From assembly GCA_001001705.1 (NCBI GenBank), contig LCOG01000006.1:1-35450 (forward strand): a stretch of DNA of 35,450 nucleotides, written 5' to 3'. The stretch is from Parcubacteria group bacterium GW2011_GWA2_47_26. GTDB taxonomy: Bacteria; Patescibacteriota; Patescibacteriia; GWA2-47-26. Below the pieces are notes generated by a model, which saw nothing but the letters and a program-made list of their open reading frames with translations, made no database searches and had not been told where the DNA came from. Shown here in pieces: positions 8,325 through 16,195 of this stretch (position 1 is its first letter; every line of letters begins with the position of its first letter). The translations under genes were made by a program, and so were the position numbers.

Positions 8325-9896
8325 TTATTCTACTACTTCTTTTATCTGTTTGCCTATCTTAACGACTTCATCAACTGATCCATCAAAAAATTCTATTTGC
8401 TCCAACTGATGCCCAAGTTCCTGACCGCTTAATCCTATAACGGGGGCCGTGGCGCGGATAAAATCTTTTTCATTTTTTAAAAATTCGTCAACAGATTCCT
8501 TCCAAATTTTCTTCAATTTATCAATGTTCTCTTTATTTTTATTTGCAAAAGATTTTCTGGTAATTAGAACATCCGCGAATACGGGGTATTCTTTGCTCGT
8601 TGTTATGACGTGGGCTCTGGATAATTCTAAGGCTTTGGAGAGCCAGGGCTCCCACAAAACCGCCGCATCAACATTGCCACTGATTAAAGCAGTGCCAATT
8701 TCATCGCCACTCATATCTTTTACAACCACATCGCTTAATTTCAGCCCATTTTTATGCAAGATGTATTTCAAAAAGAATTCGCTGATTTCACCTTTTTCCA
8801 AAGCCACTTTTTTACCTTTAATTTTTTTAATAGATTCTATATCTTCACGACTTATCAAGGCATCGCCGCCGCGCGAAATGTTAAGTCCCATAATAATTTC
8901 TGTGTCAGGCATTTCTTTCATCAAACGCAACGCTGTATCCACAGTGACGTTCAAAATGCCAATCTTTTTTGATTTCCAATAATCAATCTTCTGCCGGTTG
9001 TCACTGAATGAGATTAATTCAACCGCAAGCGAATGTTTATCAAATAAGCCTTTATCTTGCGCGTAAAAAAATGGACTATTGCCGGGCCAATAATATAAGC
9101 CGACTTTGAATGCGGCGCTTTGCGCCGGCTCTCCCTCGGAAAGTTTGCTTTTGATAGTTTCTGAACGAATAATATAAGACAACATGCGACGAATTTTTTG
9201 AAATTCTTCATCAAATCGGAGTGTTGTTTTTCGAGGGTAAGGGAAAGAAATATCCAAAATTTCCCTGATAATTCCCGGCCTCGTACCCATTACCACGACT
9301 CGTTTAGATAAAAATAAGGCCTCTTCAATATCGTGCGTGACAAATAGAATTGTCTTTTTCCCTTCTGCCCATAATTCCAAAATAAGCTCCTGCATTTGAT
9401 GCCGTGTTTCAATGTCTAGCGCGTTAAGCGATTCGTCAAACGCTATAATGTCCGTGTTTTGAGCAAGTGCCCGCGCCAGAGCCAATCTCTGCTGCATTCC
9501 GCCAGAAAGTCGCTCCGGATATGCTTTCTTATGTTTATCCAATCCCACACTTTTTAAAATCTGGTCAATCATTGTGGTCTTGCCTTGCACTAATTCTTTG
9601 AGTGCCACTAAAATATTTTGCTCAACAGTTAAATGATTGAAATTGGCATATTTCTGCGGAACGTAAGCAATGCGTTTATTCTTCAACCATTCGCGCTGTT
9701 TTTCTGAATTGATAAAAATATTTCCATCATCGGGTTTTTCTAAGCCTAGGATACATTTTAGAAGCGTAGTCTTTCCGCAACCAGACGGACCGAGTATTGC
9801 AATAATTTCTCCCGCTTTTACATCAAAAGAGACGTTCTCCAATACCCTTTTGTTGTCGTATGCCTTGTAAATTTTTTGTACACTTATGCCGGCCAT
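8325..9896 (-). CDS. NitT/TauT-type ABC transporter ATPase fused to a C-terminal periplasmic-binding-like domain
   Basis: Walker A GPSGCGKTT, signature LSGGMQQRLALARAL, then ~270 aa NMT1/SsuA-like domain (KVGLYYWPGNSPFFYAQDKGLFDKHSLAVELISF...GNVDAAVLWEPWL). Confidence 0.9.
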   Translation of the reverse strand: MAGISVQKIYKAYDNKRVLENVSFDVKAGEIIAILGPSGCGKTTLLKCILGLEKPDDGNIFINSEKQREWLKNKRIAYVPQKYANFNHLTVEQNILVALKELVQGKTTMIDQILKSVGLDKHKKAYPERLSGGMQQRLALARALAQNTDIIAFDESLNALDIETRHQMQELILELWAEGKKTILFVTHDIEEALFLSKRVVVMGTRPGIIREILDISFPYPRKTTLRFDEEFQKIRRMLSYIIRSETIKSKLSEGEPAQSAAFKVGLYYWPGNSPFFYAQDKGLFDKHSLAVELISFSDNRQKIDYWKSKKIGILNVTVDTALRLMKEMPDTEIIMGLNISRGGDALISREDIESIKKIKGKKVALEKGEISEFFLKYILHKNGLKLSDVVVKDMSGDEIGTALISGNVDAAVLWEPWLSKALELSRAHVITTSKEYPVFADVLITRKSFANKNKENIDKLKKIWKESVDEFLKNEKDFIRATAPVIGLSGQELGHQLEQIEFFDGSVDEVVKIGKQIKEVVE

Positions 9897-9898
9897 AA

Positions 9899-10663
9899 TT
9901 ATTTTTTGTAAGGGAAAAGCCTGATATAGCTTTTTCTAAAAAGATAATCGGAAAGAAATCCTATCAAACCCATAAGCAATATGCCGACATAAACATTTGA
10001 GGTGAGCGAAAATCTTTGCGCTTCTTTAATCATGTGGCCAATTCCTGTTTGGGCGGCCACCAATTCCACAATAATAACGTACGACCAGCTCAACCCCAAA
10101 GAAATCCGCATATTATCATACATTTCAGGAATTGCGGCTTGCAGTTTCATTTTGAGCCGCTGCCATGTTGTAAAGTTTAATGAATACGCCAAATCAAAAT
10201 AATCCTTGGGAACGCTCATTAAGTTGGTATCAAATAGAAGAACAATCTGAAAAAATGTCCCAATAAAAAGGAGTACGATTTTTGCCTCCTCTCCGATTCC
10301 AAAAAATAGAATGGTGAGCGGAATTAAAACCGGAACCGGGATGTATCTAATAAAATCAAGGTATGGCGTGAACAATTTTTTCCAAAAATTGGATTCCGAC
10401 ATTAATAGCGCTATTGGCAGAGCAAAAACTATGGAGATTAGAAAAGCAATCATTACTCGAGACAGCGTAGCAAAAATATCAACGGCCAGACTTCTGGATG
10501 CAAGCGATATGGCAGACGCAATCACTTTTACCGGCGAGGGTAAAAATAATGGATTGATGAGATTGGTCTGTTCAGTGATGAAATACCATAAACCCAACAA
10601 AAACAACACCGATATTAGGGCTGGCCAAAAAGTTCGGGCTGTTTTTGTTGGGTTAGCTACCAC
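9899..10663 (-). CDS. NitT/TauT-type ABC transporter permease
   Basis: Multi-TM; EYA-like GLSWSYVIIVELVAAQTGIGHMIKEAQRF motif typical of SsuC/TauC permeases. Confidence 0.9.
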   Translation of the reverse strand: MVANPTKTARTFWPALISVLFLLGLWYFITEQTNLINPLFLPSPVKVIASAISLASRSLAVDIFATLSRVMIAFLISIVFALPIALLMSESNFWKKLFTPYLDFIRYIPVPVLIPLTILFFGIGEEAKIVLLFIGTFFQIVLLFDTNLMSVPKDYFDLAYSLNFTTWQRLKMKLQAAIPEMYDNMRISLGLSWSYVIIVELVAAQTGIGHMIKEAQRFSLTSNVYVGILLMGLIGFLSDYLFRKSYIRLFPYKK

Positions 10664-10664
10664 A

Positions 10665-11660
10665 TCAATTAAATCTCTTGATAATACTGTCGGTAAGTTT
10701 GTCCGCAGCTTTCAAGCAGATATTGGTATCGCCATTCTTTTGGAGAATACTGCAAACAAGATCGTAGGTTTTATAGACATTGACCTCGCTACTCTGGTTG
10801 AATAATCTCTTATTTTCTTCTTTGCTTATCCAGCTAACTCCAGTCTTAAAGTCTTCCATTTCTTGTACGGAAACACCAAAAGCATTGGCCATGATTTGGT
10901 AGGCATCGTCATGGTTGGTGTTGATGTAATCAAGCGCTCTGAAGTAACCAGCCGCCACTTTTTCCAGTGCTTGCGGGTAATCCTTGGCCAAGTTTTCATC
11001 GGCAAAAATCAAGTCCTGCACCAACCCCGGGATGTCTGCGCTAGAGGCAAAGACTTTTGAGCCATGCCGAACTTTGACGCTGGCCGATAATGCCGGTTCA
11101 TAAATTCCAGCGGCTGCGAGTTGGCCAGCGGCAAACGCACTGCCGGCGTCTGTTGTTGGCAAATCCTGAAAATCCAAATCCTTTAGGGTCATTCCTGTCC
11201 TATCTAACAAATATTGAAGGACTAGATAGGGCGGAAAACCGGGCTCTGCGCCAACTTTTTTGCCGCGCAAGTCTTGTATTGAATTAACATCAGCCGCTGT
11301 GGCTACCCCGTCAGCTCCGTGTGATTCATCAACGATCAAGAAGCCTATGCCGGCGGGTGCGACATCCTTTGTTGATTGATATATGTCGTAAGTGGCGGCG
11401 TACATATTGATATCACCGCTACGCATGGCCGCGCGAATGTCGCCGATAGATTCAATTCTCGCAAGTTCAACATCAACCCCTTCAAAAAATCCTTTTTCTT
11501 TAGCTACGTAAAGCGGTGCGTAGCCAGGGAATGTTACCATTGCAATTTTAATCTTTGGAAGTTCGGGAGTGGGCTGGCTAGGTTTTGTGCTTATGAGATA
11601 CCCACCAATGCCCAATATAATGACGACCACAAGAATTCCTATTAGTGATTTTTTATTCAT
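10665..11660 (-). CDS. ABC transporter substrate-binding protein (NMT1/SsuA-like)
   Basis: N-terminal signal anchor; KIAMVTFPGYAPLYVAKEKGFFEGVDVELARIESIGDIRAAMRSGDINMYAAT. Confidence 0.9.
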   Translation of the reverse strand: MNKKSLIGILVVVIILGIGGYLISTKPSQPTPELPKIKIAMVTFPGYAPLYVAKEKGFFEGVDVELARIESIGDIRAAMRSGDINMYAATYDIYQSTKDVAPAGIGFLIVDESHGADGVATAADVNSIQDLRGKKVGAEPGFPPYLVLQYLLDRTGMTLKDLDFQDLPTTDAGSAFAAGQLAAAGIYEPALSASVKVRHGSKVFASSADIPGLVQDLIFADENLAKDYPQALEKVAAGYFRALDYINTNHDDAYQIMANAFGVSVQEMEDFKTGVSWISKEENKRLFNQSSEVNVYKTYDLVCSILQKNGDTNICLKAADKLTDSIIKRFN

Positions 11661-11811
11661 AGATTTTTCCTTAGAGTAACTAATTAATTTGTAATCGACC
11701 TTTATAGTATTTTACTATTCTACCCCCTCTCTCGACATTATTACAACACCAGCTTTGCGATGCCCTTATAAAAAACGGCTGGTTGAGCTACGTGGATTTA
11801 CACCCATCATA
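11661..11811 (-). promoter_or_regulatory. ~150-nt 5' leader of the ABC operon with predicted hairpins
   Basis: Contains ACCAGC...GCTGGT (11748-11753/11778-11783) and TGGG-TGTAAA-TCCA (11793-11806) stems between predicted promoter and start codon. Confidence 0.35.
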
Positions 11812-11818
11812 ACAGTTC

Positions 11819-11847
11819 AGATTAGCATACTCAATCAATCTTGTCAA
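11819..11847 (-). promoter_or_regulatory. Putative sigma70 promoter for the ABC operon
   Basis: TTGACA - 17 nt - TAATCT preceded by TGC (extended -10), minus strand. Confidence 0.55.
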
Positions 11848-11927
11848 TAGTAATAACATCATAAATAAGTTATATATATCGCAAAATCAACACTAATTGG
11901 GATATTTAAGATATGTTGTCAAGAAAA

Positions 11928-11956
11928 TTGACATAATAACAGCATGGCGGTATAAT
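11928..11956 (+). promoter_or_regulatory. Consensus sigma70 promoter for the TrmB-type regulator
   Basis: TTGACA - exactly 17 nt - TATAAT, 30 nt upstream of the ATG at 11987. Confidence 0.85.
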
Positions 11957-11986
11957 GAAACAGACAATAAAAGGCACTATTTTATT

Positions 11987-12736
11987 ATGACCATTGAAGA
12001 GACGCTCATAAAATTCGGCCTGGAACCAAAGGAGGCAATGATATATCTTGCCTGTCTTGAACTAGGACCAGCTACGGTACTACAAATCTCGAAAAAAGCC
12101 GGGATCAAGCGGCCCACAGCTTATCTTGTGCTTGATAGCCTGGCAGACAAGGGTTATCTCTCAAAAACTCAAAAGCAGAAAAAACTCCTCTACAGTGCAG
12201 AGAAGCCAGAGACACTATTGCATACTCTCCGCGCTAAAGAGGAGACTCTCCGTGAGGCGCTCCCAATGCTTGAGGCTATGATGGCCACCGCAAAAGAGCG
12301 GCCGAAAATTACTATTTTTGAAGGAAAAGAGGGGGTATGGCGGGTCTATACCGAGATTTTTGCCAGTCCCGAAATAATCTTCTTCGGTTCAATCAAAGAC
12401 ATATTAAGGTGCTTTCCGGATTTGATTGCTTCTTTTAAAAAGATTGTGAAAATAAAAAACCAGAGAGTTCGCGATCTCCTAACGACCCATAGAGATGATC
12501 TCACATATGCGAGAGAGTGTGTGAGCGAGACGTACGAAGTTCGAATAGTACCACTCCCCCTGAATTTCTCTATTGATTGTGCAATTTACGGAAATAAAGT
12601 TGCAATCCTTGCGGCAAAGAAAGATTTCTTCGCAGTGGTCGTCGAAAGTCAAGATGTCGCGGATTCATTCCGCAGTCTTCATGCACTTGCATGGCAAAGC
12701 GCAAAAACGCTGGACGAACTAGAAAAATGGGTCTGA
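11987..12736 (+). CDS. TrmB-family HTH transcriptional regulator
   Basis: LIKFGLEPKEAMIYLACLELGPATVLQISKKAGIKRPTAYLVLDSLADKGYL HTH; start moved from 11897 to 11987 because the consensus promoter lies between them. Confidence 0.85.
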   Translation: MTIEETLIKFGLEPKEAMIYLACLELGPATVLQISKKAGIKRPTAYLVLDSLADKGYLSKTQKQKKLLYSAEKPETLLHTLRAKEETLREALPMLEAMMATAKERPKITIFEGKEGVWRVYTEIFASPEIIFFGSIKDILRCFPDLIASFKKIVKIKNQRVRDLLTTHRDDLTYARECVSETYEVRIVPLPLNFSIDCAIYGNKVAILAAKKDFFAVVVESQDVADSFRSLHALAWQSAKTLDELEKWV

Positions 12737-12789: not shown

Positions 12790-13419
12790 CTAGCTAAATA
12801 TTTGTACAATATTTTCAAACACCTTTTCAATTGGCTGTGCGGCGTTGATGGTGTGCACAATGCCGCGAGGTTGGTAAAAATTAAAAAGCGGTTCGGTGTC
12901 ATTTCTATAAATTTCTAATCGCTTGCGTACCGCCTCGGGCTTATCGTCATCGCGCAGAACAAGCGCACCTTTATCTATATCACAAACTCCTTCTTTTTGG
13001 GGCGGGCTGTAAATAAGGTGATAGTTGCGTCCACAGACCGCACACACGCGCCGGCCGCTCAAACGTTTTATGGCTTCCTCATCTGAAAACGCAAGTTCAA
13101 TAACATGGGTGGGCGAAGCAATTTTCTCAAAAGCCTGGGCCTGCGCAAGGTTGCGCGGATAACCGTTTACAATATAGCCGGCCGAGGCATCAGGCCGGGC
13201 CAGCCGCTTAATCATAAGTTCGTTGGTCCATTCATTGGGCGCGAGATTTCCAGCGGCCAGGATCGGTTCGGCTTTTAAACCAAATTCGGTTTTTTTAGCA
13301 ATTTCCTCGCGCCATAAATCGCCAGCCGAGATCATGGGGATTCCGAGTTTTTTGGCAAGCAGTTCGGCTTGGGTATTTTTGCCTGAACCTTGAGGGCCGA
13401 GGATGAGAATGCGGTACAT
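12790..13419 (-). CDS. adk: Adenylate kinase
   Basis: GPQGSGKNTQAELLAKKLGIPMISAGDL, GYIVNGYPRNLAQA, zinc LID CAVCGRNYH; atypical GKNT P-loop. Confidence 0.93.
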   Translation of the reverse strand: MYRILILGPQGSGKNTQAELLAKKLGIPMISAGDLWREEIAKKTEFGLKAEPILAAGNLAPNEWTNELMIKRLARPDASAGYIVNGYPRNLAQAQAFEKIASPTHVIELAFSDEEAIKRLSGRRVCAVCGRNYHLIYSPPQKEGVCDIDKGALVLRDDDKPEAVRKRLEIYRNDTEPLFNFYQPRGIVHTINAAQPIEKVFENIVQIFS

Positions 13420-13430
13420 AAATAAGGGGT

Positions 13431-14261
13431 CTAAAAGCCTGAAAATAATTTTACCACAAAAAATCCCAAGATAGTTCCGAGGCTAATCGGCGGAAGCGCG
13501 GGCATAGGCCGTTTTTTACCCCAAGCAAAAAGAGTAGTGGTCAAGGCCAGTCCAATCACTGAACCAACTGCCGCGCCGATTGCCGGACCAAAACCTTCTC
13601 TAAAAGCTGAAGCCACAAAAATTGCGGGTAGGGCAACATCCCCGCTTCCTAAAAAGAAAAATCCTGCGCCGGGCTGTACTTTATTTAAAGGATTAAAAAA
13701 CATAGTGGGCTTGTCAGGGAGAACCAAAGCAAAAATCACGCCTTTCTCCAATAAACCTCTGAACATGGCGACCATGTGCCGCGTGCCATAAACCGCGATT
13801 ATATCGTAAACTGCCAAGGCGGCTAAAACAATGGCCATGGTTTGCCAAGGCGTGGCTAGACCCAGCGCGGCGGCAATGCCAGCAATTCCCAGCATAAGAA
13901 CAATGTTTTGGATAATCACTAACGGAAAAATATAACGCAGAGCAACTGTAACTAGGGCTAAAATAAAAGCCGCGGATGGAGATATCAAGGTAAAAATTAA
14001 CCAGACACCCAATAAGACACTGATAATAAAAAGCACCTCAAAAATAATCCGCTGACGACGCAGAGTCTTTATTAAAAAGAGCAAAAGCGCGGTAGAAATT
14101 AAAAAGGTAAAGAGAAATTGTTGGGCCGTAATAGCTGGGGCTAGAACGCCCGAGAGCACGGACAATGTTTCAATGCGTATTCCAATAACTAAGACTAGAA
14201 TTTCAACAATTAAAAGAGAGGCGATTGTCTCAAGAGTAAGAATGAGTTGCTTTTTAGGCAT
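13431..14261 (-). CDS. Presenilin / signal-peptide-peptidase-like intramembrane aspartyl protease
   Basis: Multi-TM protein with ordered motifs YD (LAVYDIIAVYGT), GxGD (FLGSGDVALP) and PAL (MPALPP). Confidence 0.8.
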   Translation of the reverse strand: MPKKQLILTLETIASLLIVEILVLVIGIRIETLSVLSGVLAPAITAQQFLFTFLISTALLLFLIKTLRRQRIIFEVLFIISVLLGVWLIFTLISPSAAFILALVTVALRYIFPLVIIQNIVLMLGIAGIAAALGLATPWQTMAIVLAALAVYDIIAVYGTRHMVAMFRGLLEKGVIFALVLPDKPTMFFNPLNKVQPGAGFFFLGSGDVALPAIFVASAFREGFGPAIGAAVGSVIGLALTTTLFAWGKKRPMPALPPISLGTILGFFVVKLFSGF

Positions 14262-14300: not shown

Positions 14301-15581
14301 CTACGTTTCGTATTCGTGCATGGTCAACTGCGCCTCGATTTGAGCGAGGGTCTCGATGACGACGGAGACGACGATCAAGATGCTGGTTCCGCCAATGGCG
14401 AGCGCCTGCGTTCCGGTCAGCCGCTGCATTAAAAGCGGCAAGATGGCGATCACGGCTAAAAAGAGCGCGCCGACAAATATAACGCGCGATATAACATATT
14501 GAAGGTAGGCCGCGGTGGCCTTGCCCGGACGGATGCCCGGAATAAATCCACCTTGCTTTTGCAAATTTTCGGAAATTTGGTGGGGATGAAAAATTACCGC
14601 GGTGTAGAAATAAGTAAAGATGAAAACGAGCACAAAATAAAGAATGCCGTAGACTAAATTATTTTGAAAAACCTGAATTACCCATTGAGCGATGCGCACT
14701 ACGACTGCGCTTTTGGCTTGAACAAAAAACTGCGCGATCATGGGCGGAAAAAGAATGATGGAGATGGCAAAAATAATAGGAATCACGCCGGCCATATTCA
14801 CGCGCAAGGGCAGATGGGTGTCAACGCCGCCGTACATGCGCATGCCGCGCACTCGGCGCGCGTAAGAAACAGGGATATTGCGCTGGGCTTGGGTAATTAA
14901 AACAACGCCCACGATTGTAATTAAGGCAATGACCGCAAAAATCACGATTTGAGTAATTTGCGTGGCATCCAAGGTCACAACAGCGCGTTGAATCGCCGGA
15001 GGCAAGCCGGCAATAATACCAGCGAAAATAAGAAGGGAGATGCCATTGCCAACCTTGCGTTCCGAAATAAGCTCGCCGATCCACATTAAAAACAGGGTCC
15101 CGGCAGTTAAAGTTAGGATCGTCAAAACATAGGTACGCGCGTTGAGTATTCCCAAAATCGGCTGGGGCGATTGGCGCAAAAGAGTCAACATACCAAATCC
15201 TTGGAGCACGGCGAGCGGAACTGTGGCATAGCGCGTCCAGCGATTGATGCGCCGCTGTCCGGCCTCGCCTTCTTTTTGTATTGCTTCAAGCTTAGGGATA
15301 ACCATGGCTAGGAGCTGAAAGATGATTGAGGCCGTAATGTATGGCGCAACGCCTAAGGCTACAACGGAAAAATTCTCCATGGTTCCTCCGGAAAAGACAT
15401 TCAGCAAGCCGAGGATGGCATTCTTCCTAAAAAAATCTTGGAGATTGGCAATGTCTACTCCGGGTATTGGGATATGGGCGGCCAAACGAAAAATAAAAAG
15501 CATGGCCAACACAAAAATAATGCTACGCCGGAGATCGCGCAGACGCCAGATGCGCACCAGAGTATTAAAAACGCGATTCAT
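14301..15581 (-). CDS. secY: Preprotein translocase subunit SecY
   Basis: FRLAAHIPIPGVD, GVAPYITASIIFQLL, MKLEAIQKEGEAGQRRINRWTRY-like, GGFIPGIRPG, GTSILIVVSVVIETLAQIEAQL. Confidence 0.98.
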   Translation of the reverse strand: MNRVFNTLVRIWRLRDLRRSIIFVLAMLFIFRLAAHIPIPGVDIANLQDFFRKNAILGLLNVFSGGTMENFSVVALGVAPYITASIIFQLLAMVIPKLEAIQKEGEAGQRRINRWTRYATVPLAVLQGFGMLTLLRQSPQPILGILNARTYVLTILTLTAGTLFLMWIGELISERKVGNGISLLIFAGIIAGLPPAIQRAVVTLDATQITQIVIFAVIALITIVGVVLITQAQRNIPVSYARRVRGMRMYGGVDTHLPLRVNMAGVIPIIFAISIILFPPMIAQFFVQAKSAVVVRIAQWVIQVFQNNLVYGILYFVLVFIFTYFYTAVIFHPHQISENLQKQGGFIPGIRPGKATAAYLQYVISRVIFVGALFLAVIAILPLLMQRLTGTQALAIGGTSILIVVSVVIETLAQIEAQLTMHEYET

Positions 15582-15696
15582 CCCGTTAGAAGCAGGTCGC
15601 GGTCTTGCCGCCCTGCTGATTAATGTGTAATGCGATTAATCTTGGCTTTTTCATATGGTAATTTTTCAGGTAACGCGACCGCGGCTTCTAACGGGA
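15581..15696. repeat. IR family 1, copy A (L15-SecY junction)
   Basis: TCCCGTTAGAAGCAGGTCGCGG...GCGACCGCGGCTTCTAACGGGA, 116 nt, flanked by TTCA direct repeats (15577-15580, 15697-15700). Confidence 0.9.
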
Positions 15697-16134
15697 TTCA
15701 ACACGGCCACCTGCCTTCTCAATCTTTTCTTTGGCTGATTGGGAGACCAGACAGCCATGAATAGCCAGTGTTTTTGTAAGACTTCCATCACCTAGTATTT
15801 TAACACCATTCCTGATATTGCGCACGAGGCCGGCAGCCTTTAGCGTCTGCGGGCTTATAACTGCACCCGCCGGAAATCTCGCTTCAAGCCAGCCCAAGTT
15901 AACCTGGGCTGGCTTGGGGTGGATTGATTTGAAACCGCGATGTTTGGGGACGCGTTGAAAAATACGCTTGAGGCCAAGCAATTTTAAACCTTTGCGTCCG
16001 CCGGAACGCGCTCTTTGCCCCTTAATACCCTTTCCTGAATAGGTGCCTTTGCCCGACGCATTGCCGCGTCCAAGACGTTTCACGCGCGTACGCGAGCCGG
16101 GAGCGGGTTTCAAGTTTGATAAGGTTATTGACAT
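15688..16134 (-). CDS. rplO: Ribosomal protein L15
   Basis: MSITLSNLKPAPGSRTRVKRLGRGNASGKGTYSGKGIKGQRARSG; start trimmed from 16170; stop TAG lies in repeat copy A. Confidence 0.97.
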   Translation of the reverse strand: MSITLSNLKPAPGSRTRVKRLGRGNASGKGTYSGKGIKGQRARSGGRKGLKLLGLKRIFQRVPKHRGFKSIHPKPAQVNLGWLEARFPAGAVISPQTLKAAGLVRNIRNGVKILGDGSLTKTLAIHGCLVSQSAKEKIEKAGGRVESR

Positions 16135-16195
16135 ATAGTTGTGAGCCACTAGCCCATAGGGTATAGCCACTAGTGTCTATTGGCTAGTCGTCACT
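16135..16195. repeat. Palindrome-rich spacer at S5-L15 junction (CCACTAG/CTAGTGG words)
   Basis: GCCACTAG and TAGCCACTAG repeated, plus complementary GGCTAG; overlaps last codons and stop of S5. Confidence 0.5.

Follow-up and report, generated by a model that had tools for sequence, protein, structure and literature searches.

The window analysed here is a 35,450-nucleotide stretch of contig LCOG01000006.1 from Parcubacteria group bacterium GW2011_GWA2_47_26, and the genes discussed lie on its minus strand. In the direction of reading they are rplO, which encodes L15 and is the final spc-operon ribosomal protein gene ahead of secY (15688..16170; TIGR01071 above cut-off); secY itself (14301..15581; PF00344, E 3.2e-106; TIGR00967); a gene for a PSH-type intramembrane aspartyl protease of 276 aa with nine predicted TM helices (13431..14261; assigned through PF06550, 4hyc, and AF2 and Foldseek); and adk, for an adenylate kinase with a lid domain (12790..13419; PF00406, PF05191; TIGR01351 at 203.7 bits against a cut-off of 168). 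The first-pass annotation gave no strand for the protease gene; the coding strand is minus, and the plus strand of 13431-14261 has stops throughout. The gap from the end of secY to the start of the PSH gene is 39 nt and that from its end to the start of adk is 11 nt, and PSH is probably cotranscribed with both neighbours. It is the single PSH copy in the window's genome (842 kb, 80% complete). Just past adk, positions 8325-12736 hold a cassette of an NMT1/THI5-like substrate-binding protein, a permease and an ABC ATPase, accompanied by a TrmB-type regulator encoded on the other strand; the gene order there is seemingly unlike that of sister genomes.

Family membership and predicted fold

What kind of protein lies between secY and adk? 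The first-pass annotation had read it as a presenilin/SPP-like GxGD protein and proposed an HMM search, and this reading is borne out by the PF06550 match, the motifs, their conservation among homologues and the predicted fold. The search gives an A22 match, with the Pfam SPP/presenilin family PF06550 at 78 bits (E 1.1e-21, cut-off 23.9) and residues 16-275 aligned to positions 4-282 of the 283 in the model. Among solved structures, a PDB sequence search returned one strong match, the archaeal PSH 4hyc (E 9.5e-18), which improves to E 1.1e-34 when a profile built from relatives is used and aligns over its full length. The protein also hits NF041679, NCBIfam's equivalog for archaeal PSH, with E 2.2e-24 and 86.4 bits, below the 125-bit cut-off of that model, which marks the protein as homologous and outside the equivalog, and PF04258, the model for eukaryotic SPP, reaches 16 bits against a threshold of 23.3. 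The window protein is confirmed as a bacterial member of the PSH/SPP-presenilin family A22 (PF06550).

The catalytic motifs occur in the order that had been read from the sequence. The YD motif (AVYDIIAVYG; Tyr152-Asp153, 13803..13808, minus strand) lies in TM6, the GxGD motif, here GSGD (LGSGDVALP; Gly205-Asp208, 13638..13649, minus strand), stands at the start of TM7, and the PAL motif (MPALPP; Pro254-Leu256, 13494..13502, minus strand) precedes TM9, which spans residues 256-273. Y152, D153, G205, G207, D208, L256 and P257 are invariant in the 16-sequence alignment, with P254 kept in at least 90%, and nearly all full-length homologues retain the motifs. An AF2 model built from 16 homologues (pLDDT 88.7, pTM 0.88) has nine helices and places the two aspartates on adjacent TM helices, as expected of the family, with Asp153 in TM6 (139-160) and Asp208 opening TM7 (206-222). 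TM6 is followed in the model by a helix at 162-172 and by strands at 178-182 and 201-205, predicted to occupy the places of TMD6a and of the substrate-binding beta strands of PSH and presenilin (for a discussion of these elements in PSH consult PMC9282858). Membrane-cutting activity of the di-aspartyl type is most likely.

A Foldseek comparison with the PDB ranks PSH first, followed by human presenilin-1 and SPPL2a. The PSH of Methanoculleus marisnigri (MCMJR1; 4hyc, 4hyg, 4y6k) shares its length, its YD, GxGD and PAL motifs and the predicted fold with the window protein, but it is archaeal and about 25% identical. MCMJR1 has intramembrane aspartyl protease activity that is blocked by transition-state inhibitors (PMC2947513). 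Human presenilin-1, the catalytic subunit of gamma-secretase, was not detected by sequence in the PDB search with the window protein, and has in common with it the nine-helix fold (Foldseek E 6e-6), the motif order and the predicted N-in orientation. In gamma-secretase, presenilin is complexed with nicastrin, APH-1 and PEN-2 and undergoes autoproteolysis in the TM6-TM7 loop; this loop is predicted to be shorter in the window protein, at about 45 residues. Eukaryotic SPP/SPPL proteins (SPPL2a 9k92, PF04258) share fold and motifs, but the sequence match is weak and below threshold, and the predicted membrane orientation of the window protein is opposite to the reported SPP topology.

Distribution and gene order

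The closest named relatives, at 57% and 53% identity, belong to Candidatus Uhrbacteria. PF06550 matches occur in 59 of the 384 genomes scanned for the class, with 54 of these above cut-off, and in 14 of 384 for the phylum, usually as a single copy per genome. A scan of about 85,000 species, which used a 4-row alignment as query and relies on short conserved words, returned named matches from Patescibacteria and archaea only (Pacearchaeota, Woesearchaeota, Undinarchaea, Thermoplasmata and others), besides metagenome-assembled genomes titled just 'bacterium', and among the control genomes two archaea and none of the bacteria carry PSH. The earlier description of these proteins as uncommon in bacteria agrees with such figures. 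The occurrence is patchy, covering a minority of the class, fewer genomes in the phylum, and DPANN and other archaea; because PSH-free relatives manage without it, PSH is not essential across the class. Several DPANN archaeal PSHs fall inside the Patescibacteria set in a quick, unrooted tree, and transfer may have gone either way. Three weak class matches (L067-L069) were discarded, as they have no motifs and resemble thioredoxin/DsbD-type proteins. One further sequence, L113 (G443), has the motifs together with a very long branch and a reversed charge pattern, and its homology or its alignment is doubtful.

How general is the placement between secY and adk? The secY-PSH-adk order, raised earlier as a feature to look for across the CPR, recurs in six families and is not general. 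In these families (f1, f15, f24, f39, f41 and f56) PSH lies directly upstream of adk, mostly at a spacing of 5-37 nt, and secY stands upstream of the adk-linked PSH except at contig ends or where other genes intervene (f24); the secY-PSH gap is larger in one f56 genome. Most PSH-bearing genomes of the class have the gene elsewhere, and therefore the link to secY and adk is lineage-specific and any association with the translocon does not extend to the whole class. Among 30 PSH-free genomes, adk was located in 24, and in 21 of these it begins 11-178 nt downstream of secY; this adjacency suggests that PSH entered the spc operon as an insertion long ago. Once the unlinked L060 and L070, a long-branch linked member with other genes between its secY and PSH, are left out, linkage amounts to one change on the tree, and the AU test does not reject a single clade for the linked PSHs (p 0.69). 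Read most simply, PSH was inserted once where secY and adk already adjoined and was then retained; the linked proteins are only about 31-39% identical across several families, yet the position has been kept.

Some linked loci have features of their own. In a family f41 genome (G042), the slot between secY and adk is filled by a 290-aa protein (L077:5055-5924) that keeps YD, has GIGE in place of GxGD and gave no PF06550 match in hmmscan. It is possibly a pseudoprotease derived from PSH; since the GxGD aspartate is missing, catalysis would be dispensable in L077. Some genomes encode a small conserved protein of 75-96 aa, without a convincing Pfam match, between their secY and PSH genes (L100:5910-6134, L101:5876-6109, L090:5907-6134, L063:5640-5927); a search of the window's genome did not find it. 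Two apparent rearrangements were rejected: the N-terminal part of a 699-aa open frame suggesting a SecY-PSH fusion in L045 is a GC-rich alternative frame, and the extra cluster-0 ORF behind an apparent tandem duplication in L070 starts in the wrong frame, with no second PSH.

Membrane orientation and candidate functions

Which way does the protein cross the membrane? Lysines and arginines were counted in loops taken from the AF2 model and read by the positive-inside rule, and this count, uncalibrated against known topologies, assigns N-in/C-out to 111 of the 112 homologues; the sole exception is a doubtful long-branch row. In the window protein the predicted cytoplasmic short loops hold 2, 4, 1 and 3 such residues and the outer segments 0, 0, 0, 1 and 1. 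N-in/C-out is the orientation of presenilin, and the window PSH is predicted to share it; the SPP-type arrangement, with the N-terminus outside or lumenal, disagrees with this prediction. SPP topology is reported to be opposite to that of presenilin, with presenilin suited to type I and SPP to type II substrates (PMC2947513). If this eukaryotic rule carries over, an N-in/C-out enzyme would be expected to act on N-out membrane stubs, and its substrates would be N-out/C-in helices and not cleaved signal peptides. A cleaved signal peptide is N-in, and for this reason it would suit SPP and not an enzyme of the predicted orientation.

Which other membrane proteases does the class possess? In 79 of its genomes, 40 with PSH and 39 without, descriptive counts that ignore relatedness find a site-2 protease in all 79 and rhomboid (PF01694) in none, all 14 control genomes being positive for the latter. 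A pairing of PSH with rhomboid was discarded on this count. Sortase is present in 7 of the 40 and 11 of the 39, and with no association seen, the clearing of sortase-cleaved tails was likewise dropped. SppA (S49), an unrelated serine peptidase that would share the proposed role of clearing signal peptides, occurs in four genomes and went undetected in that of the window (80% complete).

Taken together, it is on balance probable that the window gene encodes a catalytically competent PSH-type GxGD protease, oriented like presenilin, which disposes of N-out stubs and derives from one secY-adk insertion that was kept. A substrate TM helix would enter laterally, and Asp153 and Asp208 would activate the water that hydrolyses it. 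The substrates would be N-out/C-in helices, namely stubs left by ectodomain loss or aborted insertion, and the enzyme would provide general membrane-stub disposal in a lineage that lacks rhomboid and usually SppA. The insertion itself would date to an ancestor of several Patescibacteria families. But is the location informative about function? PSH may be a passenger that is functionally unconnected with SecY and Adk and owes its place in the spc operon to a single insertion long ago and to high expression. That the linked copies fit one insertion, that most PSHs lie elsewhere and that spc operon order is generally stable all suit this possibility, which we hold to be nearly an even call, leaning slightly against it; what argues against it is the persistence of the slot despite the sequence divergence across families noted above. 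Because it concerns location and not enzyme activity, its likelihood overlaps with that of the stub-disposal account.

The first-pass annotation had instead suggested signal-peptide turnover, with an SPP-like enzyme that acts once SecYEG and signal peptidase I have done their work and clears the cleaved signal peptides. PSH adjoins secY, signal peptidase I (S26) is found in 37 of the 40 PSH-bearing genomes, the near absence of SppA from the class leaves a vacancy and the Pfam family is named after SPP, but the charge bias gives the orientation opposite to SPP, with which the enzyme should take N-out helices (PMC2947513). PSH also does not track the vacancy, SppA being about equally rare in genomes with it (1/40) and without it (3/39), so that replacement of SppA fails to explain the distribution, and no S26 match was found in the window's genome, which is 80% complete. 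We consider this role unlikely, and the prediction of a presenilin-like orientation turns against it; the other half of that suggestion, that the enzyme turns over other segments of membrane proteins at the translocon, may hold. Could the enzyme rather have a single dedicated substrate, or a few of them, and free a signalling domain by cleavage, as gamma-secretase does with Notch? Such regulated intramembrane proteolysis would suit the predicted presenilin-like orientation, the single PSH copy that is the rule per genome and a class without detected rhomboid, and the gene cluster around PSH in family f10 hints at dedicated partners there, but the secY-linked copies have housekeeping neighbours and no conserved candidate substrate alongside, and we find this reading quite improbable. 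In f10 (L076, L080, L084, L049, L042) PSH is the first gene of a cluster that also encodes a solute-binding protein (PF01547) and, in a tandem array, small membrane proteins resembling T4SS pilins (PF18895), which are possible partners or substrates.

A bacterial branch of a known family

The family is known and has established archaeal members; what is added here is a bacterial branch in an informative gene order. No paper was found that joins presenilin to CPR/Parcubacteria as a protein family, and bacterial members may have been noticed before. The literature surveyed names no native substrate for prokaryotic PSH enzymes, of which one is used to model the structure of the Alzheimer's protease. 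In a bolder extension of the stub-disposal account, speculative and rather unlikely, PSH would have become a permanent accessory to the Sec translocon in one branch of the Patescibacteria, a minimal gamma-secretase-like 'membrane proteasome' that removes N-out stubs leaving SecY, with a non-catalytic pseudoprotease in the same slot in at least one lineage. The family is placed in bacteria, with Patescibacteria PSH sequences intermingled with those of DPANN archaea. Is the bacterial enzyme SPP-like or presenilin-like? The predicted orientation makes this a testable question, and the copies that several bacterial families keep between secY and adk offer a concrete hypothesis on where PSH may act and on what.
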